From positions 122,639,033 to 122,703,032 of the forward strand of contig CM048845.1 in NCBI GenBank assembly GCA_026545225.1: DNA of 64,000 nucleotides, read 5' to 3'. The notes under the pieces were generated by a model that was given only the letters and a program-made list of their open reading frames with translations, did no database searches and had not been told where the DNA came from. A program made the position numbers and the translations under genes. The first letter of the stretch is position 1. Every line of letters starts with the position of its first letter. The DNA is from Cornus controversa. Taxonomy: Eukaryota > Streptophyta > Magnoliopsida > Cornales > Cornaceae. Below, one piece after another: positions 1 through 21,500 of the stretch.

Positions 1-700
1 CCTATCTTTTCAATCTGTCTTCTCACCCCTTTCATCTGTCCTCTCATTTCCTTCTTCCAGCCTCATCTATTGTTCTGTCTTCTCATCTTCTGCTTTCTTT
101 CTGTCTTGCATCAAATTGGTATCATAGCAATCTGGTCCTACATACAAACAGTGCTCTGATACAAAAACTGATGCAGGCCAAACTGTGACACCAAATTAAT
201 GTAGGACCAATGAAAGCAGGGGATGAAAAGACAGAAGATGAGATGAGGCTGGAAGAGTGAGAGAGATGAAGACAAACGAATGGAGTGTGAAGACAGATTG
301 AAAAGATAGGTTGGATAGACTGAAGGGTTGAGAAAAGCAAGAATGATAAAGGAGAAGAAAACAAAAGAGAGAATTCTTAAACCACGATAATATTTCAATA
401 ATCAAAGCTGAATTATTTGATTACATATGGGCCTTTATATAGGCACAATATTAAGCAAACCCTAATAAATTACCCTAAGATATAAAAATACCAAAATAAC
501 CATAAAACTAAAACAATGTCAAAATAATAAAAATTGACCCTGATTACATCAAAATCCCTAATTTCATCTTTTTTTGCCCCTTCTCCAAGAGTAAAGGCAA
601 ATCATGTACGGTTCATGCATGCGAATCACGACTTGTTCTCCATCAAGTTGGTCTCGAGTCCTTGTCTTTTCAGTACTGGTCAAGTATAGACTTATTGGAT
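1..700 (-). mobile_element. Rearranged LTR-retrotransposon remnant with an inverted repeat
   Basis: Bases 1-143 and 310-201 form an imperfect inverted repeat: both arms read CCTATCTTTTCAATCTGTCTTC inward in shortened form and both reach GGTCCTACA. On the minus strand the right arm ends in GGTCCTACA near base 202 and is followed by TTTGGTGTCACAG, which resembles a tRNA primer-binding site. A second such site, TTGGTATCATAGCA, lies on the plus strand near 117-130. On the minus strand a TATA-like box (CCTATATAAAGGC, about 432-444) precedes an R/U5-like stretch. I infer an LTR oriented on the minus strand with a partial inverted copy beside it. The outer limit near 700 is approximate and no target-site duplication was found. 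Confidence 0.45.
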
Positions 701-2070
701 ATATTAAAGAAGAGGTCCAATTGCCATTATTCTAAGCTAATGATATAGTTTTAATTAACAAACTAATGTACCCATTCAAGCAGCCACTTGTAAAAATAAC
801 GCCAAAACTTATGTAAGTACCCAATCTACACCTCCGAGCACCCCTCATTGGCAAGCTAATGGTGTTTTCTTCAAAGAATGCTTTCAAATTGAAAACCTCT
901 AAGATTAGCACAAGGTAGAATGGAAATAATTTTAGTAATACTAGGAGAAATGAAATAACATCAATCATAAGATACCCAAAAGTGACAATTTCCACCATCT
1001 TTGATGGGTGGTTGTCCATAATATATGGGAGGTTGAGGTGGATATTGCTCGTGGCCTTAGAGTACTCTCAATAAACGAGAGAAATACATTTATATTTTGT
1101 GTTATTATCAAATATTGATCAAATTGGAAAAGAACCATTACACCAACAACAACAACAACAAAAAATCCTTTTTCTACACAAGAATTATTATTTAAAAGAA
1201 AAAAAGGAACTTAGTAACCATATTTTATTCACTTATAAAAAAAAATCATGTTTTATTGTGAATTATATACAACTATTAAAAGACAACATTTTCATAAAGT
1301 GCACATTTTTTAAATTAGGATATCAAGATGAATGACAGGTGGTGCAAAAAAGGAAGAGTAATGCATGATAGCAAACTGTAAGGAGCAATGGGTATCCAAA
1401 ATGAAAAAAGAAAAAGAGAAAAATCATACTTGATGCTTTAAACAATATCAATTTTTGCAACAACAAAGATAATCATGTTAAAATTGTTAGTTACAAAAAA
1501 AACAAGGAGAAAGCCAAAAAGACAATGAATCAAGACAATGGGAAAACACATGATGGCCTACACATAGCACAAGTAAAATACAAGGAAACCTTCAAACAAG
1601 TTTTATACCTCACAATAGCTATTTTAATAATAAAAATATCATAGAACAAATTCCATTTGGCAGTCCTTCATTAGTTTCCCCTCAAGAATACTCTTTATTT
1701 TACAGGTAATGCAGTATAGGGACAATACTCAAATGATTTCTTTTACAGGCAAAAATCCACCAATACAAATTTCAACAACTTCAGAACTAATTCAAAGACT
1801 GCCAAATTTGTTATTTACCCAGCTTTGAAAAAATTAAGCAAGAAAAGTAATAAAAGAGGTTCCTTTGCGATCAAATGAATCACTACAAATTTATTCTTTA
1901 ACAGATCAATGATATTCCATTGTGACATCAATATTCATCTGTAAAGAGAAACCTCTTAATGAACAAGAAGGGAAAAAAGAAAACAAAGGCCTAGGCTTTT
2001 GTGTTGGATAATTGGACCTAAAATATCAAAAAGAAAGTAACAATAAAGAAGCATTCTATACATACAAGAC
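701..2070. other. Intergenic, no gene recognised
   Basis: AT-rich sequence with short open frames only. No protein family, RNA gene or clear element boundary was seen. A purine-rich stretch at about 1380-1520 is low complexity. Confidence 0.5.
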
Positions 2071-3020
2071 TAGACTTGTCCTACGGATTGGATACAGACC
2101 GGATCATGGTCGATCCAAATCCAATAAGCAAAATAGGGGATCCGATCCGATAATCCGATGAATTTTCATTTAATGAATCCATATCCGATACACATATTAT
2201 AAAAATGTCCAATCCGATAATCCGACCCATTTAAAAAGCAAACAATATATTCCCTCTGTTACTCCTCAAAGAAACTAAAACCAAATCTCAGTATGGCATA
2301 ATTTACTGACAATATGTTAATATTTTCCATTTGAAGCCAGAACAAAGAATTTTTTTGTATCACTCATACACTTGGTTCTGTACTCTTTGTTAAAGAACAA
2401 AAATCACCATAAAGAGAAAAGGGATAATAAGAGAGAGGGGAGAAGAAGAAGAGAGGACAAAATGTGAAATAACTTTGTTGTAAAAGATGGAAAATTAGGG
2501 CTTCTAAATGGAGAAGAAGAAAAGGAAGAAGAGAAGGAAAAGGATTGAGAATACTCACTACATGAGGGTTTTGGCAAGAGTTCCATCGGTGCATCCACGA
2601 GCTCCCTTTTCTCTTCATCATTTTTCATGAAAGTAATACGGTACTGGAACTTCATTTTCTTGTGTATTGACTATTGAAGCTTTTAAATTTCTTGTGCATC
2701 GACTATTGAAGCTTTGGTGATATTACTGATATATATAAGGAGAAGTATTATTATGTGGGTGAGAACACCATACTTCTATACACATAAAATTGTGATTGGT
2801 CTTTTACATCAAATCTAGACAAATCTAATGGTTGATATATGATAATATATAAAATCTAAATAATATATATCTAATTTTAATCCGATCAGATCACCATAAA
2901 TCTATATCCAATTTGCTAAGGCATCGTGTTATCAGATTCAGATCATTATCGAATTATTGGATTTGCTACTTAATCCATATCCGGATAAAAGAATCAAAAT
3001 CCGATCCATTGAGAGGTCTA
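2071..3020. mobile_element. Non-autonomous hAT-like DNA transposon, about 950 bp
   Basis: The left end reads TAGACTTGTCCTACGGATTG and the reverse complement of the right end reads TAGACCTCTCAATGGATCGG, so the termini are imperfect inverted repeats. They are flanked by TACAAGAC (2063-2070) and TACAAGAA (3021-3028), an 8-bp target-site duplication with one mismatch. Both subterminal regions are rich in repeated ATCCGAT-type motifs, as is common in plant hAT elements. No transposase is present. The interior holds a pyrimidine/purine-biased segment with a minus-strand open frame (2404-2655) that could be captured host sequence. Assignment to hAT rests on the TSD length and the TAG start. Confidence 0.6.
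2404..2655 (-). other. Possible captured first exon inside the 2071-3020 transposon
   Basis: The minus-strand ORF opens MKFQYRITFMKNDEEKREL and continues to a short proline/cysteine segment. A good 5' splice site, GTGAGT, occurs at about 2560-2555, so coding sequence might stop there and the following serine-rich tail would be intronic. The first ~32 residues have ordinary protein-like composition, unlike the rest. I do not recognise the source gene. It may be a captured exon or a chance open frame. Confidence 0.25.
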
Positions 3021-3028
3021 TACAAGAA

Positions 3029-3665
3029 TCGTGATTTTTTAAATGGAGTTAGACATAGAATAGAAAATCCAAAAGTTCTATAGTGTGTATTGTAGCTTGC
3101 AACAATGACAAAGATTCAATGACTAAAAGCCTTCCCTATCAAATGCACTTCGCAGACAAGTGATCATTCTATTTCCTTTGTTAATATTTTTTTGTATATC
3201 TGCATACAAATAAGATTGCCAAAACCTGTAGTTCTAACCACCATTGTAACAAGAGAGGAGATCCCAAAGCGTCTTGATGAACAATTCAAGTCATGTAAAG
3301 GGAAAAAAGAGAGCCCCACTTTTCAATCCATGGCTTGCATCTTTACTTACCATGATTCCAAAAAGAGACAAAGAACAACACTATATTTACATGAGTAAAA
3401 CAAAATTATTAACATCACAAAGCCCCATAAAGCTTTAAAAGTTTTGCTTTATCTATATAATATTTCCGGTGTATAAGCACCATTACAACCAGATAGACAC
3501 AAAAAGGCACTTTATTGAATAGTGAAAATCAAAGAAAATCGCTCTAGTTACTTAACATTTCATAATTTCACCAATACAACAAACAAAATCATCAAAAGAC
3601 GTCATCAATATAACCAAAAAGATGTGAGTCTTTCTATATGTTATTTACATAGATAAAACATATTA
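3029..3665. other. 3' flank of the RING gene, no separate gene
   Basis: AT-rich sequence downstream of the minus-strand RING-H2 gene, presumably including its 3' UTR in the part next to 3666. Open frames here are short and match nothing recognisable. Confidence 0.45.
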
Positions 3666-5123
3666 TCAAGGTAATAGTTCAAAATTGAATCTGACCTGCA
3701 GATCCTGTAACAGGCCAATACCATCCCTTTGGGTTTTCCTCTGCTCATAATCCGGATCATCCGTGGGCAATTCATACCGACAAACAGGGCACGAATTACG
3801 AATACTCAGCCATGGGACGATGCAGTCCCCATGGTAATGATGTTGGCAAGGAAGCCTCGTCACTTTCTCTTCCACCAAAATCCCATCCTTACAAACAGCA
3901 CAAACAACATTGTTTTCCTTCAATTCTTCCTTCGTTAACACCACTGCCGGAAGATTTTCCACAACAGACTTGGCAGCCGGAGGACTACCCTTCAAAGCAC
4001 TTTCAGTCTGCAAAAATTGACCGAAGAGCGTATCATATTCAGCTGCCAATGTATAATCATCATGAACATCTAAATACGTGACACCACCATCACCATCATT
4101 TTCGAATTGGGAAATTCTATCTAAATTATTAACCGCCAAAAGAACTTCCCATTCTAAATTCCGCACAGCCTCTTCCCCAATACCCGTTTCTTCGTCAATT
4201 GACGTTTCAGAGGATACCGATAATCCTTCAATGCGATCAATGACTGAACTCAAACCTTCTCTGTCATCAACCCTCTCATCCACTTCCTCCCACTCCAATT
4301 CTTCATTGGCGACCCTTTGATCCTCAAATCCAAGACAATCCCAAAAAAGCGGAATATCCGAATCGCCAAGCTGGTCCATGCCCACATCGTGAACGCCAGA
4401 ATCGACATCCACCTCCGAATCCGACTCGGATTCAATTCCAACAACTCGAAGACCGCCTGTGCACGAATCCGCACCACGAATAGAAGCAGATTCATTCGAT
4501 TGAGAGGCAAAAGCAACTGTATCGAATTCGGTGCGAGTACCAAACCCTAACCGTAGATCCTCCGCGTAGTTCGAATCAAATTCACAACTTTCTCCGAAAA
4601 CCCTATAATTAGTATCCAAAAATGAATCTGAAACCGAACCTGGATCATCCACTACGTGTTCTTCGCGAGATTCGAACAAGTCAGTGACGAAATCCATTTG
4701 GTCGTCTCCGTAAAAGCAATTGGGATCGGAAGGTGAATCCGAGTAACCAGATTCAAGATCAGAATCAGAATCAGAATCGTAACAATTGGAATTGTGTGGA
4801 TGGGAGAAGGAGGATACGAAGGAGATATTGGGAGAAGAGAGAGCATCGAAATTGAAGGCGAAGGGGCCTTCGTCTTCGTCGTCGTCGTCATGGTTGTTGT
4901 TCTGAATGAAATCGAGGGTTTTTGAGTGCGAATGTTGTTGTTGTTGTTGTTGTTGTTGATGATGATGATGATGTTCCAATTCTTGCTGTTGGACAACGTT
5001 GGTATGATGAAAAACGTGATGGTCAGAGACCTCCGCCATTTGAGCTTGATGGTTTGAAACTCTGAATGCAACTGAAACCTCATTCGACATGTGAATGTAT
5101 GTGGTATACGTATGTGTGCGCAT
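3666..5123 (-). CDS. RING-H2 E3 ubiquitin-protein ligase (At5g08139-like)
   Basis: Intronless ORF of 485 codons. The C-terminal RING-H2 finger spans about residues 408-448 in the order CxxC, x14, CxH, xxH, xxC, x10, CxxC, with the motif PWLSIRNSCPVCR. Just before it is the PPAAKSVVENLP motif typical of the plant Praja/RING1-like E3 group. All eight zinc ligands are present, so E2-dependent ubiquitin transfer is expected; the substrate is unknown. The long N-terminal half is acidic and probably disordered. A His/Gln tract at about residues 51-68 is encoded by CAT and CAA codon runs (about 4930-4977). The start at 5123 is the longest. The ATG at 5090 (MSNEV) and the one at 5039 (MAEV) are equally or more likely, because the first 11 residues come from alternating purine-pyrimidine sequence that looks like 5' UTR. 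No transmembrane segment or signal peptide is seen. Confidence 0.9.
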   Translation of the reverse strand: MRTHTYTTYIHMSNEVSVAFRVSNHQAQMAEVSDHHVFHHTNVVQQQELEHHHHHQQQQQQQQHSHSKTLDFIQNNNHDDDDEDEGPFAFNFDALSSPNISFVSSFSHPHNSNCYDSDSDSDLESGYSDSPSDPNCFYGDDQMDFVTDLFESREEHVVDDPGSVSDSFLDTNYRVFGESCEFDSNYAEDLRLGFGTRTEFDTVAFASQSNESASIRGADSCTGGLRVVGIESESDSEVDVDSGVHDVGMDQLGDSDIPLFWDCLGFEDQRVANEELEWEEVDERVDDREGLSSVIDRIEGLSVSSETSIDEETGIGEEAVRNLEWEVLLAVNNLDRISQFENDGDGGVTYLDVHDDYTLAAEYDTLFGQFLQTESALKGSPPAAKSVVENLPAVVLTKEELKENNVVCAVCKDGILVEEKVTRLPCQHHYHGDCIVPWLSIRNSCPVCRYELPTDDPDYEQRKTQRDGIGLLQDLQVRFNFELLP

Positions 5124-5674
5124 ATGTTTGTGTCCCTAATTTCGTCGGCCTTTTTCCAACCCTTCTTTAAGAGGAAAGTAGTGTTGTTTTGACGCCTTGT
5201 TTCGTGTTGGTGGGTGAAGAGAAATGAGTGTTCAGTTAAAAATAATTAATTACCTTAGCACCCGTAAAAACTACCAATCCGGAAAAAAAAAATTAGTAAA
5301 TATCATCTATTTTTTTTGAGTTAAAATAATACACAGCTCTCATCTACATTTTATAATTTTACCTACTTCTCTTGAGATTTTATTCCGAATAACGCACTCT
5401 TTTCTTCCGTTACAGCAACTGACGTAGTCAAAGAGAATCTGCTTATGTCAACCACAGTAAACAAGTAAAAGGTTTATTTTGTCCCTATGACGCATCAAAT
5501 GACTCTTTTAACTTGTTGACCAACTAAATTTTACTTATATACCATTATGCATATTTACCACAATGCCCTTACCTTTGGTTACACATATACCTAACCTAGA
5601 GACCCATTTGGCCATTCTTATCTCTCTCGTTCCAACCATAGTAGCAGTTTTCTCTCTCTTTCTCCCCCCTTTGC
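5124..5674. other. Divergent upstream region between the RING gene and the MULE
   Basis: Holds the presumed RING promoter and 5' UTR (minus strand) next to 5124, then the left part of the Mutator-like element, whose exact outer end I could not fix. A T-rich, CT-rich leader (about 5620-5675, TCTCTCTCTTTCTCCC) precedes the GRF ORF on the plus strand. No terminal inverted repeat could be matched with confidence to the right side near 15.7 kb. Confidence 0.4.
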
Positions 5675-6106
5675 TTGCATAATATTAGGGTTTTTGAAGA
5701 TATCATTATGAAACTAAAGATGGAGTTTTCTAGTAGACATGCTAACCATGGTAGGGATCTAAGGTACAAAGAAATCTTCTGTCGTTGTGGTAGTGTGGCT
5801 GAAATTAGGGTTACCAATACCAATGAGAACAACAACAAAGGAAGGTTATATTATATGTGCTCCAATAGATCTTGCATTAAGTGGAAATAAGAATAGTGTA
5901 ATCCAATTGATGATGACTTGGAAACTTTATCAATCAATGAAGCAACCTCTTCTTTGAACCAACCTATGATGGATGCACATGCTATATTGACCCGTGTGGC
6001 AGTGGTTAAAGCAAACTCTTCTTCTTTGAAAATTTTGGGCATTGCATGCATGTTGTTGTCTTTCATGTCTTTTTTTATTTTCCTAACTTCTATTAGTAAG
6101 GATTAG
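5675..6106 (+). pseudogene. GRF-type zinc-finger / membrane ORF (At4g04775-like), broken by two stops
   Basis: The ORF runs 71 codons to a TAA at 5888; a TAG follows at 5894, and the same frame then continues to 6106. The first part holds a GRF-like zinc finger: CRCGSVAEIRVTNT, then NKGRLYYMCSN and CIKW, with Cys/Cys/Cys/Cys ligand spacing as in GRF fingers. After a short acidic linker, the C-terminal part has a hydrophobic span (LKILGIACMLLSFMSFFIFL) that should cross a membrane. Finger plus C-terminal transmembrane segment is the layout of the plant At4g04775-like family, whose function is not established. It sits inside a MULE, convergent to the transposase, so I infer it is or was an element-borne gene. 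The two stops 6 nt apart make this copy non-functional unless they are read through or spliced out. Confidence 0.6.
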
Positions 6107-6752
6107 TGGAAGGGAGATGTTGTAGTTCATGTCTGTTTTGATTCCCTAACTTGGGAATAGTTATGTATGTCTAGTCATTAACCTTTAGTTATGTATTTAT
6201 GGTGATAAACCTTTTGTTTGTTTTGTGTATTATATTATGAACCTTTTACAATTAATTAAGGTTATGCAGCAATATGTATTTATGGTCATGAACATTTTGT
6301 AATTAATTTCATGCATTCCTATAGTGTCCATTCTGCAATTAATTGCAATGTGTCTCAATACCAGGAATATCATGCATCTGCAACTAACTTAATATAAAGG
6401 ACAAAAACATAACAAATGGACAACTGACTTAATATAATGCATTTGCAAAAACACAACTAATTGAATATCACGCATCTGCAAAAACATTAAAAATGTAAAA
6501 ACTATCCAAAAATAACTGTTTAATAAAGTAGACAAAAACACACAAACATTCATCAAAGTTAAGCTACAAGCCTACCCAAAAACACAAACCAAACTACAAA
6601 AACCCCTCCTCCAAAATACCCAAACAGCCCAAACAGTTTTATGTTGCAAACTACCCAAAAATAAATAACATTGTTTACAACTGGTGTATGCCTTGATTTG
6701 ATGTACTATATTGATTTTGAGATCCTCCTATCCCTCTTCCCCTAGCTCCTAG
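6107..6752. other. AT-rich gap between the two convergent MULE genes
   Basis: Short repeated phrases such as TATGTATTTATGGT and CATCTGCAA recur within a few hundred bases. It lies between the 3' ends of two convergent element genes, where termination signals would be expected. Nothing coding was seen. Confidence 0.4.
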
Positions 6753-8618
6753 TTAGCCAAATACAGGTATGAATCTCCCTCTCCCCATAGCAGGTTGTGA
6801 TGAGCTGCGTCTTCCTCTTTGTGGTGGCACTGAGTTACCCCTTTCTCTGAGTGAAGATGCAGTCCCTCTCCCTCCTTGCACATTTGATGGAGCTGCAATG
6901 TTTCTACTTCCTCTTCCTCTTCCATATGTGAATGCAAAACCTCTTCCTCCTTATGTGTTTGATGGAGTTGCACTGCTTCCCCTTCCTCTTCCTCTTCCTC
7001 TTCCATGTGTGATTGCAACCCCTCTTCTTCCTTGTACATTTGATGGAGGTGCAGCCCCTCTTTCTCTCTATGCATTTGATGAAGTTGTTGTCCCTCTTCC
7101 TCCAATAACATTTGGTTTGCCTGCATCCCCTCTTCTTCTATGTGCATATGGTGGAGCTATAGTCTCTCTCCCTCTCTATGCATATGGCTGAGTTACAGTC
7201 CCTTTCCCTCTCTGTGGTGGGACTAAGCTCCCCCTTCCATGTGTGTCATTTTGTGACTATCACAAATAACAAAAAGAAATATGTCAAAAAAATTGTCAAA
7301 TGATTTGATAACAAGTTAGAAACCAACTCCATTTACTTGTTGGGTGACACATGGCTCTGATTGGGATACCCATGCACTTCCTATTCCTCTTCTAGCTTAT
7401 TGTGCCTAACATAACAGTAATACATTTGTTATTAACTGATTCATAAAAAATAGATATCATGCCAAAAAAAAAATTAAATTCATATCACATGTTCCTTTCT
7501 AGTTAGAGTTCTTTGACAAGTTCTTTTGTTATGCCCAAACCTTTAGCAAAGTGTGCATGCAAGAGTGAAACTCCTTCTACACAAACTAATACTTGGGGCA
7601 ACTTCATTAACATCTCTTCTTTTATTTTTCCTAGACCTTCCAAATAATTTTCCAGGAAGAGGAGGATCCAATAGTATTCCAGTATATGGCTGCCACAATA
7701 TTTGGTCAAGTATAAGATATATCATTTATTCATATGTCTTCATATATGTCTCAACAGTATAACATAAATCACAGTAAGTCTCAATATTATCATTGGTGTA
7801 ATATATTGCAGCTACTGCATGCTTACAAGGTAGGCCTGAGATTTTCCAACCATGACAGTCACATGTTCTGTCATTCAAATTGATGATATGCCTAAAAGAC
7901 TCATCCATTACCTCAACCCCCCCACCCCCCCACCTACAACCCTCACATTATATGTCCCTCTCTCAACAATTAGCTTATTTAATTGCTTCCTAATGTTTGG
8001 TGTAACCACACCATTCTAGCTACAACCCACTTAGTACCTCTTTTGAAATCTTTCCAAAAGTTTTGCTATAATCCTATCTAAGCATGAAAGTAAAGGCATT
8101 ATCCTAAGATCACCAACCCAATTGTTAAAACTCTCACTTATGTTGTTCGTTACATGATCATTCCTCACACTTGAATTAAATGCATGCCTAGACCAAGCTG
8201 ACAATTAAAAGTTATTCATGAGCCACTCATGAGCTCTAAGATCCAAGTTTCTCATTTGATCCATTGTCTCTTCAAATTTATATAACTTATAGTCTATAGC
8301 AGCCTTCTAAAAGTTTTTCCTTAACATGAACCCACCATGTTTTCTCTTAAATGCATTGTACAAATGCTTACAGTACAATCTATGAGTTGTCTGGAGAATG
8401 GTTTCTACAATTGTTTGGTCAAGGCCCTAACATATTTAACAAACTTAATTAAACAACATAAATATAATTTAGGACAATAATTGATTTTAAAAAATATAAT
8501 TTTGATTTACCTTTTGCATGTCTGATATGATGGTCCAAGGCTTGGAAAGTGCACCTGCTTCAATTACAGTGCTCAAGTGTTATAGAAAAAATATTCAACT
8601 GTCATTCCTCTCACTTTC

Positions 8619-11098
8619 TGTCACGCCCCTAAATTCGAGTCACCGGAATCCCCATTCCCGGGTCTAAATTTCGAGAGTGAATTCATTTATTTAACCACAT
8701 AGACTATCCCAAAACTTTACAACTACAGAAGCTAACCATACACACATGATTACATATGCGTATACTCATCACTACTTATCCCCACAGGCCCCACATTGGT
8801 CTATACATTTGTACATGTCCGTCCTCAATCCAAAATTTATGAAATTTCAAACCAGCCCTGTTTCGGTCGGCTAAAACCTGGATTCAGCTGACCCAATACA
8901 CAAGAATTCAATATATTTCAGATCAGTTAGTCGAGTGGAGAGTAGTTTTGGTCAGCTGAAAGGATGTTTTCGACTAGCTAAAACCCTTCTATGGTGGACC
9001 GAAACAGGTGCCCATTTCAAAATCTCTCGGGATCTCACATTTTTGGTTGGCCAATACAGTTCTATTAGGCAACCGAAACTCCCCAGAATGTTTAAAACCT
9101 GTTCAACTCAAGTCCAAATACATTTCATAGTTTCATACATTCATACACAACTCTAAACATGGATAAAACTCAACAAACCACACATCACATAAATACAATC
9201 TAAAAACATATTTTTTATACATGTTTTCTCAAGTCCTCAATACCTAAAAACATAGGTTGAAAACATACAACTCCCCATACATCTATATACACAAGTTTTC
9301 ATCCATAATTACATGTCATTTAAATCATTTTAACATGCCACAAGCTAGCATAGATAGCAATACATGTAATATCCAAAATAACTCAAAAATGTTACCGAGT
9401 GCTCCACGTGGCTACTCAAGTCCCATCCACCACCGGTGCCTTATCTGTAAAAAGGTTTGGGGGAGAGGGGTGAGTAAAACAACTAGCTCAGTAGAAATGC
9501 TCCAATCCACCTAAGCACTGACCCGACACCAACCTAGATGATATGCAATCATCATATCGTTCCTCTACATGACATTTCAATGTTTACATGTCAACTTAAT
9601 TCAATACAACTCATATATGTATTTAACACATTCATCATACTTAACAGTTAAACACATAAGCATCTTTAGATTGACATCTTTTTCGGTCATAATCCGATAC
9701 TTATGCATAATTTGTCATCTCTGACGATCATATAGGGTTGGTCAACTTCGATGACACTCGTATGATTGGGCAACTCTGAAGATCATACATTCTTGGCAAA
9801 ATATTAGTCTTGTCAATGTGATTAGACAACTCCGACAATCATCATATCGTGGTATAATTGGGCATCTCAGACGATCAAATCATTGTAGATATTTTATGAC
9901 TTTCATAACATGGTTAGACAACTCTGAATCTCGTGTATGACTCACTTGGACAAAACTTTGATTCCTATATGCACATTAGGCAACATATAACACATAACAT
10001 ATTTCTCATGCTCTCCTACATACATTCATGCTTTGTAGTAATTCTAGCATATACTATATTCTCACATACCACATATATACACCTATATGCCCATGTCATA
10101 CATATATCTCATACGTGTACACAATTCCACATATATCAATCATATATTCACAATTCTATACAAATAACATGTATAAGCTCACAACCGTCATATATCACAA
10201 TATGAACAACATTAACTTACATTAAACCATAATAAAAGAGAAGGAACATAATACACAATCCCACCATTTTCCCATACATGTTAAACTCAACCAAATTCTC
10301 CCAAACTCACCAATACCTATAAATCAATGATTAAGAAAAAAGAAACACCCCTGCCTCAAATCCAAACTTTTTCTAGCAAAACTCTAGAAATCACCAAGTT
10401 TCAAACTCCACCAAATTAAACTTCCTTTCCGTAGGATTGTAGATCGGAACAAAGAGAACAACTCTTCCTTCTTGGACAAGACCTGAATCCAAGCTTCAAT
10501 CTCACTCAATTTTTGAAAATTTTCAAAACGGAACTTTGAACCGACCAACTCGAAGAGGAAGGCAAGGAGAACAACTTTCTCTCTTAGAGCAAATTTCAAA
10601 TCTCACTCTAAGACCTTCAAAATGAAGAAAGAAAATGAAGAAGATAAAAGCTTAAGAAAGACAATAATGGCTGACTATCTCTTCTTCAAATCTGCCCAGC
10701 AATATACCCTTAAGAGTATTAATAATAAACTAGGTGTAAAATGACCATATTACCCCCAAGTCATTTAATGTACTTTTCGTACTCTGTTTTCGATTTCGAA
10801 AGTGGTTACGGCTTCGAAATCACTTCCTTAACTCTTAAAAAGTTTCAAATATTCTAAAACCAAAAATAATTTTTTTTCAAAAAAAATTCGATTTCCCGGG
10901 CCCACCTGACCCTTGTCTGGGGCCCTGTCGATTCGAAAATCTCAAATTTTTTCAAACGCTTTCAAAACTTTCCTGAACCTCTAAAGAAGTTCCCAAACAT
11001 ATTTTTCACATTCAAAACATACATAACATCATTTAAAATCCATTTATAACAAAAATGATGAATAAAAAAATCGGTCAAAATTAGACCCGGTCTTTACA
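8619..11098 (-). mobile_element. Solo LTR 1, about 2.48 kb, inside the MULE transposase
   Basis: Bounded by TGTCACGCCCCT and GGTCTTTACA, giving TG...CA ends. Flanks are CTTTC (8614-8618) and CTCTC (11099-11103), a 5-bp duplication with one mismatch. Dropping the LTR and one flank copy joins the MULE motifs FAVVE and SERNDS in one frame, which confirms the boundaries. The minus strand ends in GGGGCGTGACA, the usual U5 end of many plant Ty3 LTRs, so minus orientation is inferred. Internal imperfect repeats: a (G)GTC(A/G)GCTGAAA-like motif around 8860-9070 and a GACGATCAT motif about every 55 bp at 9723-9876. No gag-pol was seen. The ends are nearly identical to solo LTR 2. Confidence 0.8.
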
Positions 11099-11677
11099 CT
11101 CTCCACCACAGCAAATGGCACAGGAAATAAAGCATTATTGGCATCCAAAACAATGGCTGCCAATAGTACACCACCATATGGTCCCTTCAAATGGCAGCCA
11201 TCAACTCAAAAAATGGTCTGCAACCCAACTTGAATCCAGTTCTCATTACTTCAAATGAAATAAATATTCTTCTAAATATTAGATTCAAAGTAAAATCAGG
11301 TTGCCAATGGTTGAACTTAACTAATCTGCCTGGATTAGATTTTCTTATTTCATTTGCATATTGGAGCAGTAACCCATAGGAGACAGTATGACTGCCTTTA
11401 ACTTCATCCATTACTTTTCTCTTTGTCTTATACAACTTCATCTTTTTTAGTTAAAGTCCATGATTTGACTTAAGTGCCACTTTCAATCCCTTCACAGTCA
11501 ACTATAGATTCTCTTTAAACCTATCAACATACTTATTAGCTATCCACTTGGAATCTGACTCTGGATTGTCAGTGTCTGTAAATCTAACACAATTATGTGT
11601 GTGAACTTAATCATATATGTCATATTATATGGGAGAGGTGAAGCATGTATCCTCCATGGGTAGCCTACTATGCTACA

Positions 11678-14012
11678 TGTCACGCCCCAATTTTTAAGTC
11701 ATCAGAAACTCAGTCTCCAAGCCCAAATCCCGAAGGTGAGTTTGTCCATTAAATCCTAATGAACTATCTCAACATCTAAATATAGCGGAAGCATAATCAT
11801 ATACACATAGTTGTACGTGTGTGATTATACATCGACTCCTCTTAATGAACCCTATAAGTGACCACACATGCACACCCAAACCATATTTTTACCAACAGAC
11901 CAGTTGTGGATTACGATCCATCGTAATAGATATTAAGATGCATCGTAATCTACGATATATCGTAGATGTCTCGTAATATCTTGAGAAAAATGTTATTTTT
12001 CACCCATTTTCTCAACATTTTTAATATACATCGTAATAAGGATTATGATGCATCACTAGATTACAATCCATCGTAATAGGGATTACGATGCATCGTAATC
12101 ACTTGACTACAATTCCTACATAATTCTCAAAGTGCTCTAAACCTATATAATTTATGTCCAATTCTCATCCCCTATTATACATACATTCTCCATGAAGTGT
12201 AAAACATCTAAATTGATCCATAGCATGTATAGCATGGTCCAAATATAAAATTTACATCTCTAAATGGATCATGTCCATAATTACATACACCTTGGGATTC
12301 AAAATTCACCCGTCATACATATATTCATTCATTATTCGAGAGTTAAAAACATGCCACACATGGCTAATACATTTGAAGCTCAAACATATAAAGATTATCC
12401 AAATAGAACAACAACATTTCTAAAATAGTCAACATGCCATAACCCAGCATGGACATCTATATATGCAATCCAAAAGAACACCAAAAATTCCACTCGAGCA
12501 TTTCTAAGCTTTGTCCTCCACTGGTGCTTTATATGAAAAAGGTTTGGAAGGGGATGAGCATACAACTAGCCCAGTAGAGATGATCTACCTGACTCAATAA
12601 TAACTCAAACAGCCATGCATAAATGTAAAATGGGATCTTTATGCAACTACATGGCATGTTTCAATATTTGACAATGAAAGATATCACATGTCTTAATTAC
12701 ACATAAGAAGCTTAACATAAAATATGTTCACAATTAAACTTAACACCATATATACTTTGAAATCAAACCAACTGGGGACTTCTGATTATCACATCCATAG
12801 TAAGTGTCATTGAAGACCACATACTCTGATTACGCTTTACGGATTGCTAATCCGACGGTAGCGACATCCGCTTAGCCAAGTTTTGGGCCTTACACCCTAG
12901 AGCTCCGGGTCCTTCTTGTTTCTCACACACTTGTCCTAGAATCATCAATCACCACATAAGTGCACATTTATCACATATATGCACAAAACCAATTGTCACA
13001 AAACTCACTCTCAATGTATTACATTCAAATAGCTAATGCACCTCCAATTCATGTCACACATTTTCAATGTAAGACCATTTAAGACATGAAAATCCAAATC
13101 TTATGCATTTTCAAGAAAACCTCTTTCATGCATATATTCAATCCATAGAGTCAAAATTCACATATATCTCAAATAAACACAATTGACTCATATAAACCAT
13201 CTTATACATATATACATTATTTAGCATATATATGGCACACACACTCCACTTAGAACATGATAAGAGAATTAAATATCAAAGAAAAATCAACTTTTACCCA
13301 TACAATAAAGTCAAAAGCTACATGTCACAATTAAAAGACTTATAGAATCAATGTTAAGTAGGAATTCACACCCCTACCTCAAATTCCAAGCCTTTGAAAC
13401 TAAATCTTTGAAATCCCAACTTTCCCAACTTCACCCAAAATAAACTTTGTTTGTCTCAATATGTAATCCTTGCCGAGTAGAGCAAATCTTTGGCCTTCGA
13501 CATTTTCCAAATCCTACCTTAAGGCCTCTAAAATGAAGGAAGAAGAAAAATTGATGAAAGGAAAGGAGAGAGAATGTTTGGCCAGCTATTATTAGCTTCA
13601 CAAATGGATGAAATATCAGCCATATAGATATTTATTTATAATATCTTGGGATGCAAAATGACCGAAATATCCCTGGGCCACTTAACGTACCCTCCTGACC
13701 TCCGTTTTCGATTTCAAAAGTGGCTACTGCTCCAAAATCACTTCCTTAACTCTTTGAACATTTTGTTTTATTCAAAACTAAAAATAAATATTTCTCAAAA
13801 AAAATTCAGATTCCCCAACCCATTAGACCCGGGCCCCGCCAACTCAAAATTCTCAAATTTCACCAAATGCTCCCAAAACTTTCTCGAACCTCTAAATAAG
13901 TTTTCAAACATGTTTTTCACATTTAAAACATACATAACATCATTTAAATTCCATTTATAACAAAAATGATGAATAAAAGAAAAATCGGTCAAAATTGAAC
14001 ATGGTGTCTACA
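11678..14012 (-). mobile_element. Solo LTR 2, about 2.33 kb, inside the MULE transposase
   Basis: Starts TGTCACGCCCCAA and ends ATGGTGTCTACA. It is flanked by a perfect 5-bp duplication CTACA (11673-11677 and 14013-14017). The last ~90 bp match the end of solo LTR 1 closely, so both belong to one family and lie in the same orientation. Joining the host sequence across it, with one CTACA kept, restores the MULE frame through YRCSIVGYPWRIHAS. No coding domain is present. It carries a cluster of short palindromes at 11910-12105 (see findings). Confidence 0.85.
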
Positions 14013-14867
14013 CTACACCTGTAAGTCAATCTTGTTCTTTCATTTTTTTATTCTCCACAGTTTAAACCCCTCCTGAATTGTATAATCCTTCAATACTTTT
14101 CTAAAATGGTCTACATTATCAAAGATATGATACTGCTCCAGTTCAATTTTAACCATTTCAACTTTATGAAATTATTTTTCATACTTGTTATAATCATGCA
14201 CCCTAATCTTTGGTCTTCTCTTAATTTTTGCATTTTGCCTTGTCTTCCCATAATATCCCTATTCAACTTCATCTTCTTTTTCTTCTTCATCCCACCTATC
14301 ACTTGATGATTACCCACGGTCATCATTAGATTCATAGTCACTTAAGCCATCATCACTTCTGTTTAAATAGGCTTTGTTCCTAATTGTTCTTTCATCTACT
14401 AGAGTTTCATCACTGTTAGATGATTTAGATTGGGAACCACCTTCATTCTAGTCTTCATCTTCAGAGTTAAACCCATACACATAATTCTCTCCCTCATCCT
14501 CACTGTTATTATCAACCTCAACATCTTCTTGTTCATTATGAGTTTGATCAAAGCCCCCTTCATTCTTATTATCAACCTCAGCATTTTCCTGTTCATCCTC
14601 AACTTGATCACATTCCCTTTCATTATTCTGATTGAGATCAACACTAACAAGTGTCCCTAAATCAACAAATAAGTTTATGTCTCTTCTAGAAACATGAAAG
14701 CTAAACATGTCCAGCACATCAATATCATTACTGATCAACATCATATACTCATTATCAGGTAATTCATAATGTATTATTGGTGCTAAACCAACATTGCCAT
14801 ACAATCCAGTAAGGGCTTTATAACAATCCTCATTCAAATCAAGATCAAAATACTTATCAGAATCCAC

Positions 14868-15450
14868 ATTTCATATTGTACTAACTGAATTTAAATGAGG
14901 AATATGAAAGTCATGATATGTATCCATGACTTTGACATAGATACAAAATTACTACACATAAAAAATAAAGCAACATTACCATTATATATAATGATAATAA
15001 TTGGAATGAGTATAAAACCCCTAAATTGGAAGCCCTAATTGAAAACAGAAACAAAAAGGCCCAAATTGAAAGACCTACAAATTGGAAACCCTAATTGGAA
15101 GCAGAAACATAAATTTCCTAATTTGAAAGCCCTAATTGGAAGCAGAAACAAAAAACCCCAAATTAGAAGCCCTAATTGAAAGCTGAAACAAAACACTCAA
15201 ATCGTAAGCCTTAATTGATTGCAGAAACAAAAAAAATCCAAATTGGAAGCCCTAATTGAAAGCATAACCATAAAATCTCTAATTGAAAGCTCTAATTAAA
15301 AGCAGAAACATACAAAACTCTAATTAGCATCTCTAATTGAAGGCTTCAATCGAAAGCCCCAAATTAGAAGCCTAATTGATGGCTTCAATCGAAAACCTAA
15401 ACGACAGCCCCAATCGAAAGCAACCAATAGTGAAAATGAGAACAATATAA
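14868..15450. repeat. ~40-bp tandem repeat array at the 5' side of the MULE transposase
   Basis: From about 15028 to 15360 the phrase GAAGCCCTAATTGAAAGCAGAAAC recurs in shortened, diverged forms. The core GCCCTAATTG begins at about 15032, 15088, 15129, 15169, 15208, 15249 and 15288, so spacing is mostly 39-41 bp. The array lies upstream of the transposase start on the minus strand and therefore in its promoter or 5' UTR. Subterminal repeats of this kind are common in MULEs. The rest of the interval, between 14868 and 15027, is AT-rich with nothing recognised. Confidence 0.6.
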
Positions 15451-15826
15451 AAACTCTAAACTGAATGAAAATGTGAACAATATGAAAACCCTAAACTAAA
15501 TATGCAAACAAATATGAAAACTTAAATTGAAAATGCAAACAGAAAGAGTCGTATATATAAAAATATTTGGGTTTGTTACGTACCTCGCAGACACTAAGCC
15601 CAAATTGCAATATTCACCTAGTTCTGCTCCGATTAGGATATACGAGTAGCGAAATAGTCTAGATTGAATCAAAGATATCACATAATACAAATGACTAAGT
15701 CTGGATTACGAAGTACAACTAGATAAGAGGTACTTTAGTCATTTCTCATTTGGTACATAACTCAATATATAATAATATATAATACATGGGCATAACGGTA
15801 AAATCACAATTTCATTTAAATACAGA

Positions 15827-16132
15827 TCAAAAAAGATTACAATCTCTAATAGCCATCTCTTCTATAAAAGCATGAAATACATCAAAGAAACAAATTGTAT
15901 CCCTTCTTTGCATTGCATACCGAGCTAGATGATGAGCCATAGTGTTAGCTTGTCTCTTGATCCATCTTAACTGCCACTGATCATGCATTTGTAAAGTAGT
16001 CTGAATATCCTCGTAAATGGATGCAATGCTCATTGCAACATTTTTCGGTTGGATCACTAATTTGCAATCCGCCTCAATCACCACCTCAGATAAATTCCAC
16101 GTTGTCCACTTCAAGGCAAATCTAGCAGACAT
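15827..16132 (-). pseudogene. RNase H domain fragment of a LINE (RVT_3 type)
   Basis: An open 101-codon stretch resembles the C-terminal RNase H of plant non-LTR retrotransposons: SARFALKWTTWNLSEVVIEADCKLVI, shortened here to its key motif EADCKLVI, then later WIKRQANTMAHHLARYA, with the conserved Asp (EADC) and His-rich end (AHHLA). No reverse transcriptase or poly(A) tail was found next to it, so it is a fragment. It lies just outside the MULE. A domesticated RNase H gene is possible but unlikely given the lack of any upstream part. Confidence 0.65.
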
Positions 16133-17111
16133 AGTTTAGCTACTAAAGTTGATGCTACCATTGGGAAGAAGTGAATGACAACTTTCAAAACCTTTCCACT
16201 TTCAAAACCTTTCCACAGTGTCATCTTATTCCTCTAAGCATCCTTAAACTCATGCCACTGATTTGTTGTATGTTACACTATGTCAACCCAATTAATATTT
16301 TTTTTTTAAATGAAAAAACCTTCCAATCTAGGTAACTTTTTGACACACACTTTGAATATGTATAATTACCCGCAAATCACAAGTATCATTTAAACTCAGT
16401 CATTTTTACGCTACTTAGATATTTTTGCACTATGTGAGAATCGAATTCGGAACGTCATCCATTTTGGATTTTTTAAAAAAAAGTATAATTATAAAAAAAA
16501 TATATTTTCTCTCTTATATTTTAAATTGAAAATAAACACGTGTCGTTTTGTACACATTGACAGAGAGGCGGTGAGAAAACAACATTGTTCTATTCTTATT
16601 GAACAAATATATCACAAAAAAAATTTGTTTATCTTTCTAAGTAAATTGAAATGAAAAAAAAATTAGTTAAAGTACTCCTGATAATCACCAATTAAACATC
16701 CAATGCTCACGTGAACCATTAGGATCGGGTGGGTCATTTGTGGACCTAGAATTTGGGTCATCTACTCCATGGCTAAAAGCACTAGCCTAGCTCAGTTCAT
16801 AATGAGAATATTTTCATTTTTTCCATTCCACGCATAAAGGAATAATCGTATAAGATAAAACTCTCACGTTCGATTTTGGGCCGTTAGGTCTGCTTTTTGG
16901 GGATAAGAGCCCACTATACATACTTACTGATGAGCTAGGGCCTAGGTAATGGACATGTTCATCATCAAACCCACATCTTCTCCCATTTAGGCCGACTTCT
17001 CTTATGTTTTGGATCAAAAAATTAAGGGTTCAAGGTATTAGCATCTGTGAGTTTCTAAAAAGAAAACAAAAAAGAGAGAAGTTTTTTTAAATACCACACA
17101 TCCCAAATACT
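16133..17111. other. Intergenic, no gene recognised
   Basis: AT-rich sequence with poly(A) runs. A segment at about 16810-17020 gives a short minus-strand open frame without family resemblance. Confidence 0.4.
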
Positions 17112-17427
17112 ATGGGCCTGTTTGGCATGCATTTTGTTTTTGTTTTTTATATTTTGTTCGACATTGTAGAAACAAAGCATGTTTGGTTCCATCTGTTATA
17201 TTTTGAATAATATAAAAACGTTTCAAAAAATTGGGCCGAAATTGGAAACACCATTTTGCTGTTTTTATTGTATTTCGACTACTGTAGAAGGAAAAGAAAA
17301 CTTAAAACACATTTTCGTTACAAAACCATGTTTTCGATTACTATTCAAAACACTCATAACAAAGACATTTGTTCTATTTTAGGTAAAAACAAAAACGCGA
17401 AACACAAACTCATGTCAAACAGAGCAA
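17112..17427. mobile_element. Candidate MITE, about 315 bp
   Basis: The left end reads GGGCCTGTTTGGCATG and the right end, reverse complemented, reads TGCTCTGTTTGACATG, so the termini are related inverted repeats of a kind widespread in plant hAT and Harbinger MITEs. The interior is T-rich without coding capacity. No clean target-site duplication was identified. Confidence 0.45.
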
Positions 17428-17499
17428 TGTGATATTTGAACAACTATTACTCTTTTTGATAGTTTATAATAGAAAATTCTCTATTAGAAGTAAGGTGAA

Positions 17500-18185
17500 A
17501 AAATTGGACACGACACAAGTTAAGCGAGTTTGAATTTGAGATAAGCCGACACGTTTAATAAATAGGTTGAAAACGAACACGACACGCAAAAATTAGATTG
17601 GGTTTGGGTCTAAGCTATCTAACCCGCAACACGATTACGACATGAGTTATTCATATATTCTTGTTTTATTAAAACTTATATATACATAGTAGTATATATT
17701 ACAATTTTTGTAATCTATTTGTTTGTTTACAGAACTAATGCATGCATAAAATTCAATGATGAGATTGCTATGATGTCTTTTCAGGTGTTGAATCACCTTA
17801 GTATATTTTTGGAATTATATATAGATATAAAATTTATATATAGTTTGATTTTAGGGTTTATATATAGATATGTACTTTATATTTTATATGATCTTGAGAG
17901 AGATTTAGGGGTGGAAAAACTCATATCATAAGAGTTAAAAGAATTAAAAATGTTATTAAACAAGTCGTGTGATTATAGAACATGTTTATTAAACGAGTTA
18001 CACGGGTCAACCCGTGTAACTCGTTTAATAAACGAGTTGGATTAGTGTTAAGGATTTCTGACACGATTATTAATGAATCAGGTTAGGATTGAACTGTTTA
18101 GCAAAATACTCATAAATCGACACGACATGGGAATGCGAATTATGACCCATAATTGATAGTACAACTTCACCATATGCACACCTAG
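17500..18185. mobile_element. Possible hAT-like non-autonomous element with an internal palindrome
   Basis: Both edges carry the motif GACACGAC (about 17508 and 18119), and shared phrases such as CGACACG and AAACGAGTT recur inside. The middle holds a perfect 24-bp-arm inverted repeat (17984-18033). The boundaries are not fixed and no target-site duplication was confirmed. Confidence 0.35.
17984..18033. repeat. Perfect inverted repeat, 24-bp arms, 2-nt spacer
   Basis: The left arm 17984-18007 ends in ACGAGTTACACGGGT and the right arm 18010-18033 is its exact reverse complement, with CA between them. It can form a cruciform or a tight RNA hairpin. It lies within the likely hAT-type element. 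Confidence 0.85.
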
Positions 18186-19081
18186 GAGAACTAGGAATTT
18201 TTAGTTCAATTTCTTAAAAATAGTTATGAAACACTCAAAAAAAAATCGTTCTTCAAATAACTACAAAAGATAATATTTTGAAACGAGACATTTTAAAATT
18301 TAGTTTTAAGAGAATAATTTTTTATAAAATTCTCAGTAAAATAAATCTTCAAACTATTTTTTGTTTTTTAAGTTTTTAAATAACAGAAAGGTATTATCAA
18401 ATTGAATCCAAACATAAGTTAGTTTTCATGTATCACAATCCAGCTAATAGGACAAATATTGGGCCTAAGTATGGTGAAGAAACTAATTAATGGGCCCTTA
18501 ATTGTGAGGCCTATTACATTATTATAATGATGACGTTTCTAAGCTGGCTTCAAATCATTAGATTATTGCTTGCAACTTGTTTTATTCATTTATTTATTTC
18601 GAAAGAAAATAATTAATTATTCTTATACTTATATGCGTGTGTAATTATGAAAGCAATGATTTTAAGTTTAATGGGAATTACTTTCTACCTGACACTCCAC
18701 ATATTATTTATAGTTTGTCTTGACATTAATAATTCATCCTTCGCAAGTTGGATGTGCACCATCTCCTTTTATATAAACAATTATTTTTCCATTTTCAATG
18801 CAGAGTTGTTTAACTGAGGTTAATGTATCGCCAAATATTTTCAACAACATGATATGAAATTAGACTGAATAGATTAAGCTGTTTCCCTTAATTTTCATTT
18901 TATTATTTAAATTTTAATAAATTAGTTGAACTGTGACAAGGGTTTTTAAGTTTTGAAGATAAATTTTTTTTTTCCTTTGTGACAAGGGTTTTTAAATTTT
19001 GAATAATGCAGGTGGCAATTTGTATTTCTGAATTTATTTATGTGAAAACAGTTACAATAACACGATTATTAGTATTACACA
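18186..19081. other. Intergenic, no gene recognised
   Basis: AT-rich spacer; the phrase GTGACAAGGGTTTTTAA occurs twice (about 18930-18995). Nothing coding was seen. Confidence 0.45.
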
Positions 19082-19089
19082 AGCAATAT

Positions 19090-20037
19090 TAGGGGTGCAC
19101 ACGGTCCGATTCGGTCCGGTTTTGATATTTTTTGGAACCAAACTGTATGGTCCGGTTCTATTAAAAATAGAACCGGACCAAACCGTTTGACCGTATGGAA
19201 CCGGACCGGACCGAACCGCGAAGAACCGGTTTGGTCCGGTTCGGTCCTACGGTTCACCAATTTCAAAATTTTAAAATATAGGATCAAATTACTTAAATCA
19301 TTTTGTATTACTTATTAATAAAAAATCTTTTTATTTGTTTCAAGAAGAGGTGAGCTAGGAACCGGTCACTCTCCCTTGTAGTGAACAATGAAAAGAACCA
19401 AACCATAAATAGGGTCACTCTCCCTTGCAGGATCTGCCAGAGTCAGGAGAAGAATGGGATAGATTTCATATCTAAATATTATATCATATATTATATATGA
19501 GTCTTGTCCCAGCATATATATATTTATTATTTATTAAGTACATAACACTGTTATGATAACAGCCTAACAGGCATAGGGGGCTCATAGGTGTGAAATCTAA
19601 ATATTGTATCAAATATTATATATGAGTCTTGTGCTAGCATTTATATATTTATTAAGTACATAACAGGCATATAACAGGCATAGGGGGGCTCATAGGTCTG
19701 AACCTGTGAAGTATAGGGACATATTGTGAATTGACCGTGCGGTAGAAGTAAAAGAAGAGCAGGCAGTGCATTTATTTTTTGGTACAATTAAGTACTTGTG
19801 TAAATGTATAAGAGTATAGGTATAATATATTTTATATATATATATATTATACAGTAATGGTCCGGTCCGGTTCGGTCCGGTCCTAAGTGACTTGAAACCG
19901 TAACCGGACCGTTACTTAACGGTTCCAAAATTTTGGAACCGTGACCGAATCGGACCATGAAAAAACCAGACCGAATTGTCCGGTCCGGTCCGATTCAATT
20001 TGATTTTACGGTTTGGACGGATTTTTGTGCACCCCTA
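19090..20037. mobile_element. Non-autonomous hAT element, 948 bp, with perfect 8-bp TSD
   Basis: Ends in an 11-bp terminal inverted repeat TAGGGGTGCAC / GTGCACCCCTA. It is flanked by a perfect 8-bp duplication AGCAATAT (19082-19089 and 20038-20045), the hAT hallmark. Subterminal regions are full of GGTCCGGTTC-type repeats in both orientations. The interior has no transposase; it holds a ~130-bp imperfect tandem duplication (about 19460-19690) with ATATGAGTCTTGT and AACAGGCATAGGGG in each copy. Mobilisation would need a transposase from elsewhere. Confidence 0.85.
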
Positions 20038-20045
20038 AGCAATAT

Positions 20046-20786
20046 GACAAGATATATTTAATTAAAATTTTCTTAAAATTATTTAAAACACAGAATATTT
20101 ACTTGATGCATTAAACTAACTTGTTAATTTGAAGTTATCCTGAATCACACGACATATTTAACTAATTTATCAATTTAAATTAATATATCAATATGATTAC
20201 GAATGGAACACAAATTAATTTAATTTGGAGATATACAAATTCGAAATAAGAAAATAGCGTATCTGCATAATGGCGGGAGACTCACAACTATTAATCAATA
20301 GTTATCCTGTGTCACGTTCAAATCATATTAGAGTATCGTCACCCACTCACCCCCAATTTAACGGCAATTCTCGTTACCACTAATTATGAAGCTTAAAGAT
20401 GTATTTCAAACTCGAGCGGTTATATGCGCGTATAATGAGGGTGTCAGTTTTCAGTTAAGCGTGTGTGTGTGTGTGTGTATATATATATATTTACGGAAAT
20501 TAAGCGTATACGGAGTAATTTTTTTCTCGCGCATTCGTTCTTTTCAATGTCTTTAGAGAACCTCTGGTGAAAGTTATAACCTGAATTTGCTGGGAGTAGA
20601 GAGGACCAATCCATTGACAACGACGTCAATGGAGGTCCTTCATCTTTAATGAAAAGTATGCCCTAAAATCATTATGAAAAGAACTACAGTAATCGTTCCA
20701 CGTGATGTTCATGTCTCAGTCAAATCGTATATTTAAAAAACTGTAAGTATAATACATAAACATTACTTGAAGCTTTCTCTTTCTCG
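20046..20786. other. Upstream spacer of the AVT6 gene with a GT/AT microsatellite
   Basis: Contains a (GT)9(AT)6 run at about 20460-20491. No coding sequence was seen. The part next to 20786 presumably includes promoter sequence of the amino acid transporter gene. Confidence 0.5.
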
Positions 20787-21500
20787 ATATATATATTAGT
20801 ATTTACATATAGCCAAATCTCCGTACAAAGAAAGTAATCTTTTTTGTTTTTATGGTTCTTGGTTTATGATTCTTAAGGTTCTGATTGAAATATTCTTTTC
20901 TGTCAAATATATCAATTGACTTCAAAGCTCGATTGCGATCGTTCATTTCAGGTAGATCTATCGATTTTCGTCGCTTTTACGAACTAGGTTTTCCGAATTT
21001 AGTTGTTCTGTGCTTTGCTCGCCTTCTCATTTCATTGTTGAAAGCCTAATCATTATCAAAATCTTTGTCGTTTATTGGTTATCTTGAAAGGATTTAATTG
21101 ATTTGGAAGGTGTTTAGTATCTGGGTCTCCCAAAATTTATTTACTTGAAATATTAGGAAGTATTCACTTGATCTACATCTTTTTATTGCTAGGATTTTAT
21201 TGTTTTAAAGTCTTGGGGGAAAAAAAGTCTATTTTCAACTTAATCAGCTGAATTTAGAACCATATTCTTCACTTTTAAAGTACACAATTCAAATTGTTTG
21301 AAATTTTCAGGAAGTTTGAAATTTAGTCCAAAACTGTGCATCTGAAAGTTTCAAGGCTTTTTTTTTTTGGTGTTTTGAAGCTGATTTATAATCATTTTTT
21401 TCCGTACAGATCTTAAATTAAATCCTAGAAGGCTAGAAGTTTGAGCTGTTTGTCATAAAACCCATAAATCTTAATATTTACTTGGAGAGTTAAGTAGAAG
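20787..21500 (+). promoter_or_regulatory. Likely core promoter, 5' UTR and leader intron of the AVT6 gene
   Basis: A TATA-like run ATATATATATTAG lies at about 20787-20799. A splice donor candidate CAG|GTAGAT at 20951/20952 pairs with a strong acceptor TTTTTTTCCGTACAG ending at 21409, which suggests a ~458-nt intron in the 5' UTR. The coding start follows at 21501. All of this is inferred from sequence signals; no transcript was seen. Confidence 0.4.

Follow-up and report, generated by a model that had tools for sequence, protein, structure and literature searches.

The DNA analysed here, called the window throughout, is a stretch of 64,000 nucleotides from Cornus controversa (assembly GCA_026545225.1, contig CM048845.1, positions 122,639,033 to 122,703,032 of the forward strand). 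It holds a decayed Mutator-like element (MULE) of the MuDR type, in which a gene for a GRF zinc-ribbon protein on the plus strand and a transposase gene on the minus strand are convergent. A preliminary description had placed between positions 5600 and 15450 a minus-strand MULE transposase lying tail to tail with a plus-strand open reading frame (ORF) for a GRF-finger membrane protein. Pfam profiles (SWIM and GRF) bear out this arrangement, and the GRF finger and the hydrophobic stretch were recovered by Pfam and Kyte-Doolittle analyses. In contrast, the frame proved not to be open, as it contains two in-frame stops, and the bounds had to be moved: the left end lies at ~5294, where homology with relatives starts, and homology with the full-length sibling L050 (L numbers designate loci) runs to 15807.

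A decayed element with two convergent genes

The features that define the element and its two genes are as follows.

5294..15807, unstranded: decayed MuDR-like MULE, right terminus missing (collinearity with L050; left terminus from relatives)
5294..5375, plus: left terminal repeat remnant (relatives among L035-L040; inner limit set by the ~81-bp repeat length in L050)
5708..6106, plus: frame of the GRF-membrane protein, from ATG 5708 to the final stop TAA 6104, broken by TAA 5888 and TAG 5894
5777..5872, plus: GRF zinc-ribbon domain (Pfam PF06839 9.4e-7, PF23549 1.3e-6, in 5708-5887)
6032..6088, plus: hydrophobic C-terminal stretch, tail-anchor-like, after both stops (Kyte-Doolittle 2.38, 19 residues, 5 from the end)
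6756..7256, minus: RG-rich C-terminal tail of the transposase (from translation; the same in L050 at 1299-1748, minus)
7729..7947, minus: SWIM zinc finger of the transposase (Pfam PF04434 7.1e-11, above cut-off)
7971..8426, minus: part of the transposase after the catalytic segment (tblastn to the L013 and L050 transposases)
11083..11677, minus: transposase from DNA-binding to catalytic segment (tblastn, 68-85% to L050, 30-49% to L013)
14016..14246, minus: start of the MuDR DNA-binding domain of the transposase (70% to L050)
14451..14870, minus: N-terminal part of the transposase, PB1-like by position

The GRF ribbon of the window scores 29.3 bits against PF06839, above the curated cut-off of 25.9, and 28.5 bits against PF23549. 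After the in-frame stops at 5888 and 5894, 69 codons continue to the TAA at 6104. A Trp-rich WKWKW stretch that immediately follows the GRF domain is a recurrent site of stops (in L052, in L054 and at 5888-5896 of the window), and decay through mutation of methylated cytosines is a possible cause.

The minus-strand pieces follow the order expected of a MULE transposase: N-terminal part, DNA-binding domain, catalytic segment, SWIM finger and RG-rich tail. The matches of the window to the MULE catalytic domain (Pfam 0.0055 at 11080-11205) and to DBD_Tnp_Mut (0.043 at 14043-14171) are weak and both fall below cut-off; hence, the identities of these segments rest on the siblings. The N-terminal part (14451-14870) has no Pfam match, and PB1 is matched weakly (0.0066) in the L013 transposase. 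Five of eight other window pieces in the same Pfam scan gave no match or a match to something else.

The window is collinear from 5353 to 15807 with L050, whose element spans 25-6082, and the decayed copy measures ~5.7 kb once two inserted stretches resembling long terminal repeats (LTRs) are subtracted. Its left end was placed by comparison with seven left ends of relatives, several of which begin at or near GGGTAAATATC; the corresponding letters of the window are TAGTAAATATC. Homology with L050 stops 121 bp before the right end of that sibling, and no right terminal repeat was found in window positions 15400-24000. When terminal repeats were sought in the window alone, the best local alignment scored 28; shuffled sequences gave a median of 25 and top scores of 29-30. 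The insertions and the remaining features in and beside the element are listed below.

8619..11098, unstranded: solo-LTR-like insertion in the transposase (target duplication CTTTC/CTCTC, 4/5)
11678..14012, unstranded: second, related solo-LTR-like insertion in the transposase (target duplication CTACA, 5/5)
15009..15377, unstranded: degenerate CCCTAATTGAAAGC-type repeats upstream of the transposase (repeat families D1 and D4; matching repeats in L050)
15827..16135, minus: RNase H fragment (RVT_3, of the type found in long interspersed nuclear elements), outside the element and adjoining its lost right end (Pfam PF13456 2.6e-6)

The two solo-LTR-like insertions (TGTCACGCCCC...ACA) are 78% identical across their last 380 bp and sit ~580 bp apart in a single transposase gene.

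Pairing of GRF genes with MULE transposases across the genome

Taken by itself, the window shows two broken genes and no recognisable pair of terminal repeats, a picture that a host GRF gene or pseudogene lying beside a MULE by chance would also give. We therefore turned to relatives in the plant's own 772-Mb genome. A DNA search with window positions 5200-6640 (best 40 of 186 candidates scored) gave 104 rows, from which 39 main GRF-side pieces were kept, at least two of them covering just part of the frame. A search with the transposase segment 7380-8620 (best 40 of 51 candidates scored) gave 41 rows corresponding to 39 loci, two second pieces having been dropped. Of these 39 listed transposase loci, 37 (counting the window) have a GRF piece no more than 40 kb away, with side and relative orientation as expected, and at 31 the distance is within 3 kb; the chance expectation is ~0.004 per locus. 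None of the 39 loci has a GRF piece on the wrong side or strand, and the two loci lacking one are the 69%-identity matches. Thus, the GRF gene and the transposase recur together in the window's family beyond chance.

The sibling L050 shows what an intact copy looks like. It has terminal repeats of ~81 bp (93% identity), a target duplication in which 8 of 9 bases match, a GRF-membrane frame that is open over 143 codons (451-879) and, on the opposite strand, a transposase in several open pieces that match DBD (7.3e-17), SWIM (2.4e-9) and, just under the cut-off, MULE (3.2e-5). Its GRF domain passes PF23549 (29 versus a cut-off of 27) and misses PF06839 (25 versus 25.9). Among eight sibling GRF regions, the frame is open throughout in L050 and L055 and stopped in L052, L054 and L056; in L051, L053 and L057, a scripted scan recognised no GRF reading frame. 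Given the co-location at 37 of the 39 listed loci, and the terminal repeats and target duplications that enclose both genes in relatives, we rejected a chance host-gene neighbour for this family, an explanation that we now regard as scarcely credible. The element in the window very probably belongs, as a decayed member, to a family of MuDR-like MULEs in which a second gene, convergent with the transposase, codes for a GRF zinc-ribbon protein ending in a hydrophobic tail.

A genome-wide GRF search (best 150 of 378 candidates scored) yielded 115 rows, and we examined 10 kb around the 20 best matches. Nine of these regions contain a MuDR-like transposase, in all nine cases downstream of and convergent with the GRF gene, never upstream or on the same strand. 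Ten others sit within one other large repeat, which covers 8.6-10 kb of them, and L019 (rank 11) has no transposase or element match. Both ends were compared in five of these nine MuDR-like elements, and in all five the GRF gene is enclosed by terminal repeats (44-54 bp) and flanked further out by a 9-bp duplication that is exact; target duplications of 8-11 bp are a hallmark of MuDR-like MULEs. Apart from small changes, the termini read GGGTAAAGTGCAAAAAACACCCC or GGGTTAAGTGCAAAAAACACCC, and the elements are 5.8-6.7 kb long. A search with the L013 transposase (best 53 of 1290 candidates scored) gave 85 rows representing 48 loci. A GRF match lies within 10 kb at 19 of these 48 listed loci, including all of the best 8, and is convergent in all 19, at a distance of 0.9-2.4 kb; 18 of the matches come from the 115-row GRF list, and one is a piece of the window's family (18 loci without it). 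Random placement of the 48 loci relative to the 115 listed GRF matches (C1-C10, with C7 assumed to be 62 Mb) gave a mean of 0.155 and a maximum of 3 co-locations in 1000 trials.

The large repeat is an element of 16.2-16.4 kb, with terminal repeats of ~70 bp in both copies compared; copy B is flanked by an exact 9-bp target duplication, ATTAAAAAC. It encodes a FAR1-type transposase (Pfam FAR1 8e-25, MULE 2.2e-27, SWIM 1.1e-6) that converges on the GRF gene, in most cases from a distance of 5-8 kb. This set at first seemed unrelated to MULEs because the distance placed the transposase beyond the first 10-kb stretches. That view was dropped when the transposase was found by extending two copies and, by coordinates, for all ten: each of the ten large-repeat regions among the top 20 has a convergent FAR1-type transposase 5.8-14.7 kb from the GRF gene. 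Searching with this transposase (best 102 of 710 candidates scored) gave 105 rows, or 100 loci. Of the 46 loci with at least 80% identity, 21 have a GRF match within 20 kb, convergent in all 21. Below 80%, one of 54 loci has a GRF match within 40 kb, 9.3 kb away and non-convergent, and none has a convergent one. The contrast between 21/46 close and 0/54 distant loci indicates that the GRF gene goes with particular element families and not with FAR1-type transposases in general. Upstream of their GRF gene, the FAR1-type elements L018 (1321-1920) and L022 (1437-2030) also share a further conserved ORF (HDIHTILGLPKG...) that has no Pfam match; the 16-kb elements may have more than two genes.

At least 40 of the 115 listed GRF matches have a convergent MULE context, including 28 of the best 40. 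No MULE context was assigned to 12 of the best 40 or to 63 of the other 75; the matches left unassigned in these two groups may represent genes of the host, elements of other kinds or copies in decay. The preliminary description had proposed that part of the GRF family, which it likened to the At4g04775-like family, is transposon-borne, on the expectation that GRF genes lie near MULEs more often than by chance and inside their terminal repeats. In this genome, all of this holds. The co-location is far above chance (37/39 in the window's family, 19/48 versus 0.155 for L013-type loci, 21/46 versus 0/54 for FAR1-type loci), and the repeats enclose the GRF gene in the five MuDR-like relatives, in L050 and in the FAR1-type elements; in the decayed copy of the window, which has lost its right repeat, the left end lies outside the gene. 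Here, the GRF gene lies inside terminal repeats and moves with the element, keeping its order and orientation in several MULE families, and a good part of this GRF family consists of genes of transposons, not of the host.

A few further features were seen around these elements and elsewhere in the window. A 489-codon open frame (3666-5135, minus strand) encodes an acidic protein in whose C-terminal part a RING-type finger pattern was recognised by eye; it is likely a host gene and lies ~160 bp from the left end of the element. In L050, a putative host gene (7115-9332, minus strand), FolD-like by eye (folate dehydrogenase/cyclohydrolase), is separated by ~1 kb from the right end of the MULE. 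At positions 49775-49876 of the window lies a 50-bp palindrome that is almost perfect and has CTCCGTCCCA close to its ends; it resembles a miniature inverted-repeat transposable element, presumably of the Stowaway family. Nested long hairpins of 74 nt (96% complementarity) and 48 nt (94%) occupy positions 56591-56963.

Evolution and possible role of the GRF-membrane protein

Intact GRF proteins have ~130-155 residues. The GRF domain follows a short N-terminus and leads into a variable middle part and then a hydrophobic C-terminal stretch, which lies at the C-terminus or at most one residue from it in five of six proteins scored for hydropathy. PF06839 scores reach 39.7 bits in L012 and 38.1 bits in L027; other Pfam matches in these proteins are weak and under cut-off. 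The GRF profile matches the structures of the NEIL3 GRF domain (7omk, 4.9e-7; 7jl5, 1.5e-6). Searches beyond the plant returned three bacterial matches over 21-37 residues in genome contigs, none relevant, and none in viral contigs.

The ratios of non-synonymous to synonymous substitution rates (dN/dS) indicate that the GRF ORF has evolved under purifying selection. They are 0.41 for L012-L020, 0.46 for L012-L014, 0.36 for L014-L020, 0.35 for L022-L026 and 0.27 for L026-L027, with one-sided Fisher p values of 8e-6 to 2e-3 (uncorrected, on rounded counts, for these five chosen pairs). Relative to the proteins of L012, L020, L014 and L016, the GRF domain is 52-59% identical in the FAR1-type elements and 31-41% in the window's family. 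For the catalytic segment, in contrast, the window's family is 50% identical to the L012-L020 set, and the FAR1-type transposase is not detected by BLASTP. As these pairwise identities are out of step, they suggest that the GRF gene has been exchanged between elements or acquired more than once.

As the best reading, though one somewhat less likely than not, we tentatively propose that the GRF protein acts as a transposition helper at the position that mudrB has in MuDR. Its ribbon would bind the intermediates of excision or integration where their DNA is single-stranded or forked, and the hydrophobic tail would anchor the protein in the membrane of the nuclear envelope or endoplasmic reticulum, most plausibly the nuclear envelope. 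So anchored, it could keep the complex or strand intermediates at the nuclear periphery for repair, or could aid integration or reinsertion.

Several observations weigh against this proposal or against the generality of the pairing. The GRF ORF of L016 is without a hydrophobic tail, and dN/dS reaches 0.64 in pairs with L016; in two very close, young pairs with few changes, it is 0.64 and 2.26. FAR1-type copy A has terminal repeats and no target duplication. No listed GRF match lies within 20 kb of 25 of the 46 close FAR1-type loci, or within 10 kb of 29 of the 48 L013-type loci; the latter count is an upper bound on absence, as the GRF list derives from the best 150 of 378 candidates and the search misses some loci. 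Some elements may be without the gene. Finally, an Abermu element without a reverse ORF shows recent polymorphism (PMC9168764), which suggests that such a second gene may be dispensable.

The GRF gene could instead be passive cargo, a host GRF-membrane gene that MULEs picked up, as Pack-MULEs do, and that plays no part in transposition. That MULEs capture genes is well established (PMC13317346), and the failure of GRF identities to follow the transposases, with its hint of several acquisitions or of exchange, would fit. Cargo would not, however, be expected to remain under purifying selection between element subfamilies, to be retained near-constantly in the window's family (37 of 39 listed loci) or to be convergent in every co-located case in three element sets, the sole exception being the distant FAR1-type locus; we consider it quite unlikely. 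Somewhat improbable, too, though worth keeping in mind, is a counter-defence function in which the GRF protein opposes host silencing. There is a precedent in VANC of the VANDAL elements, a second MULE gene with an anti-silencing function (PMC6446971, PMC13317346), and GRF-type fingers are mentioned in work on plant repair and demethylation enzymes (PMC4191409, PMC9743578); a membrane tail, however, is unexpected in a chromatin factor.

Relationship to known MULE systems

A broader proposal goes beyond this genome. The GRF-membrane protein would be a widespread accessory gene of plant MULEs of two long-separate clades, MuDR-like and FAR1-like, exchanged between them or repeatedly acquired. It would take the place of mudrB and would prove to be what some of the unexplained reverse ORFs encode; most of the plant GRF-membrane genes at present taken for host genes would belong to transposons or descend from transposon genes. 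We see this proposal as nearly evenly balanced, with the scales tipping slightly against it. A domain identity is now available for a MULE second gene, a class for which little function has become known since mudrB, and its role becomes testable. Many of the plant genes that carry a GRF zinc-finger annotation may be mobile, and MULEs should be masked before GRF 'expansions' are counted in plant genomes.

Like NEIL3 and APE2, the proteins described here contain a GRF ribbon, as seen from the profile match to NEIL3 structures; unlike them, they are only ~130-155 residues long and most have a C-terminal hydrophobic tail. The 16-kb relatives resemble the FAR1-type MULEs, of which we take Jittery to be a member, in their terminal repeats and their transposase with FAR1, MULE and SWIM domains. 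Jittery, however, has one gene only (PMC9168764), whereas the 16-kb elements add a convergent GRF gene. GRF-type and other zinc fingers have been listed beside (retro)transposon domains among expanded families (PMC10359422).

Second MULE genes that face the transposase are already known from mudrB and from ORFR of Abermu (PMC9168764). The elements share with maize MuDR the transposase and opposite-direction second gene between terminal repeats and the 9-bp duplication (PMC9168764, PMC6446971), and differ from it in that their second gene encodes a hydrophobic-tailed GRF zinc-ribbon protein; mudrB is set apart here by description, not by sequence. They are also similar to the Abermu MULEs of barley and other plants, which have a MuDR-related transposase, a reverse ORF in some types and 9-bp duplications in most elements listed (PMC9168764). 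ORFR is described as a gene of unknown function, unlike mudrB, that evolves fast and under purifying selection (PMC9168764); the text never uses 'grf', and ORFR and the GRF gene are compared by description only. Extra resident genes also occur in VANDAL/Hiun elements (vanA-vanC) and in Ulp1-carrying MULEs, in which, however, the second gene is VANC or Ulp1 (PMC6446971, PMC13317346). Since no link between GRF fingers and MULEs was found in the open-licence literature, the elements combine a MULE layout that was already known with a second gene whose GRF identity is newly identified.

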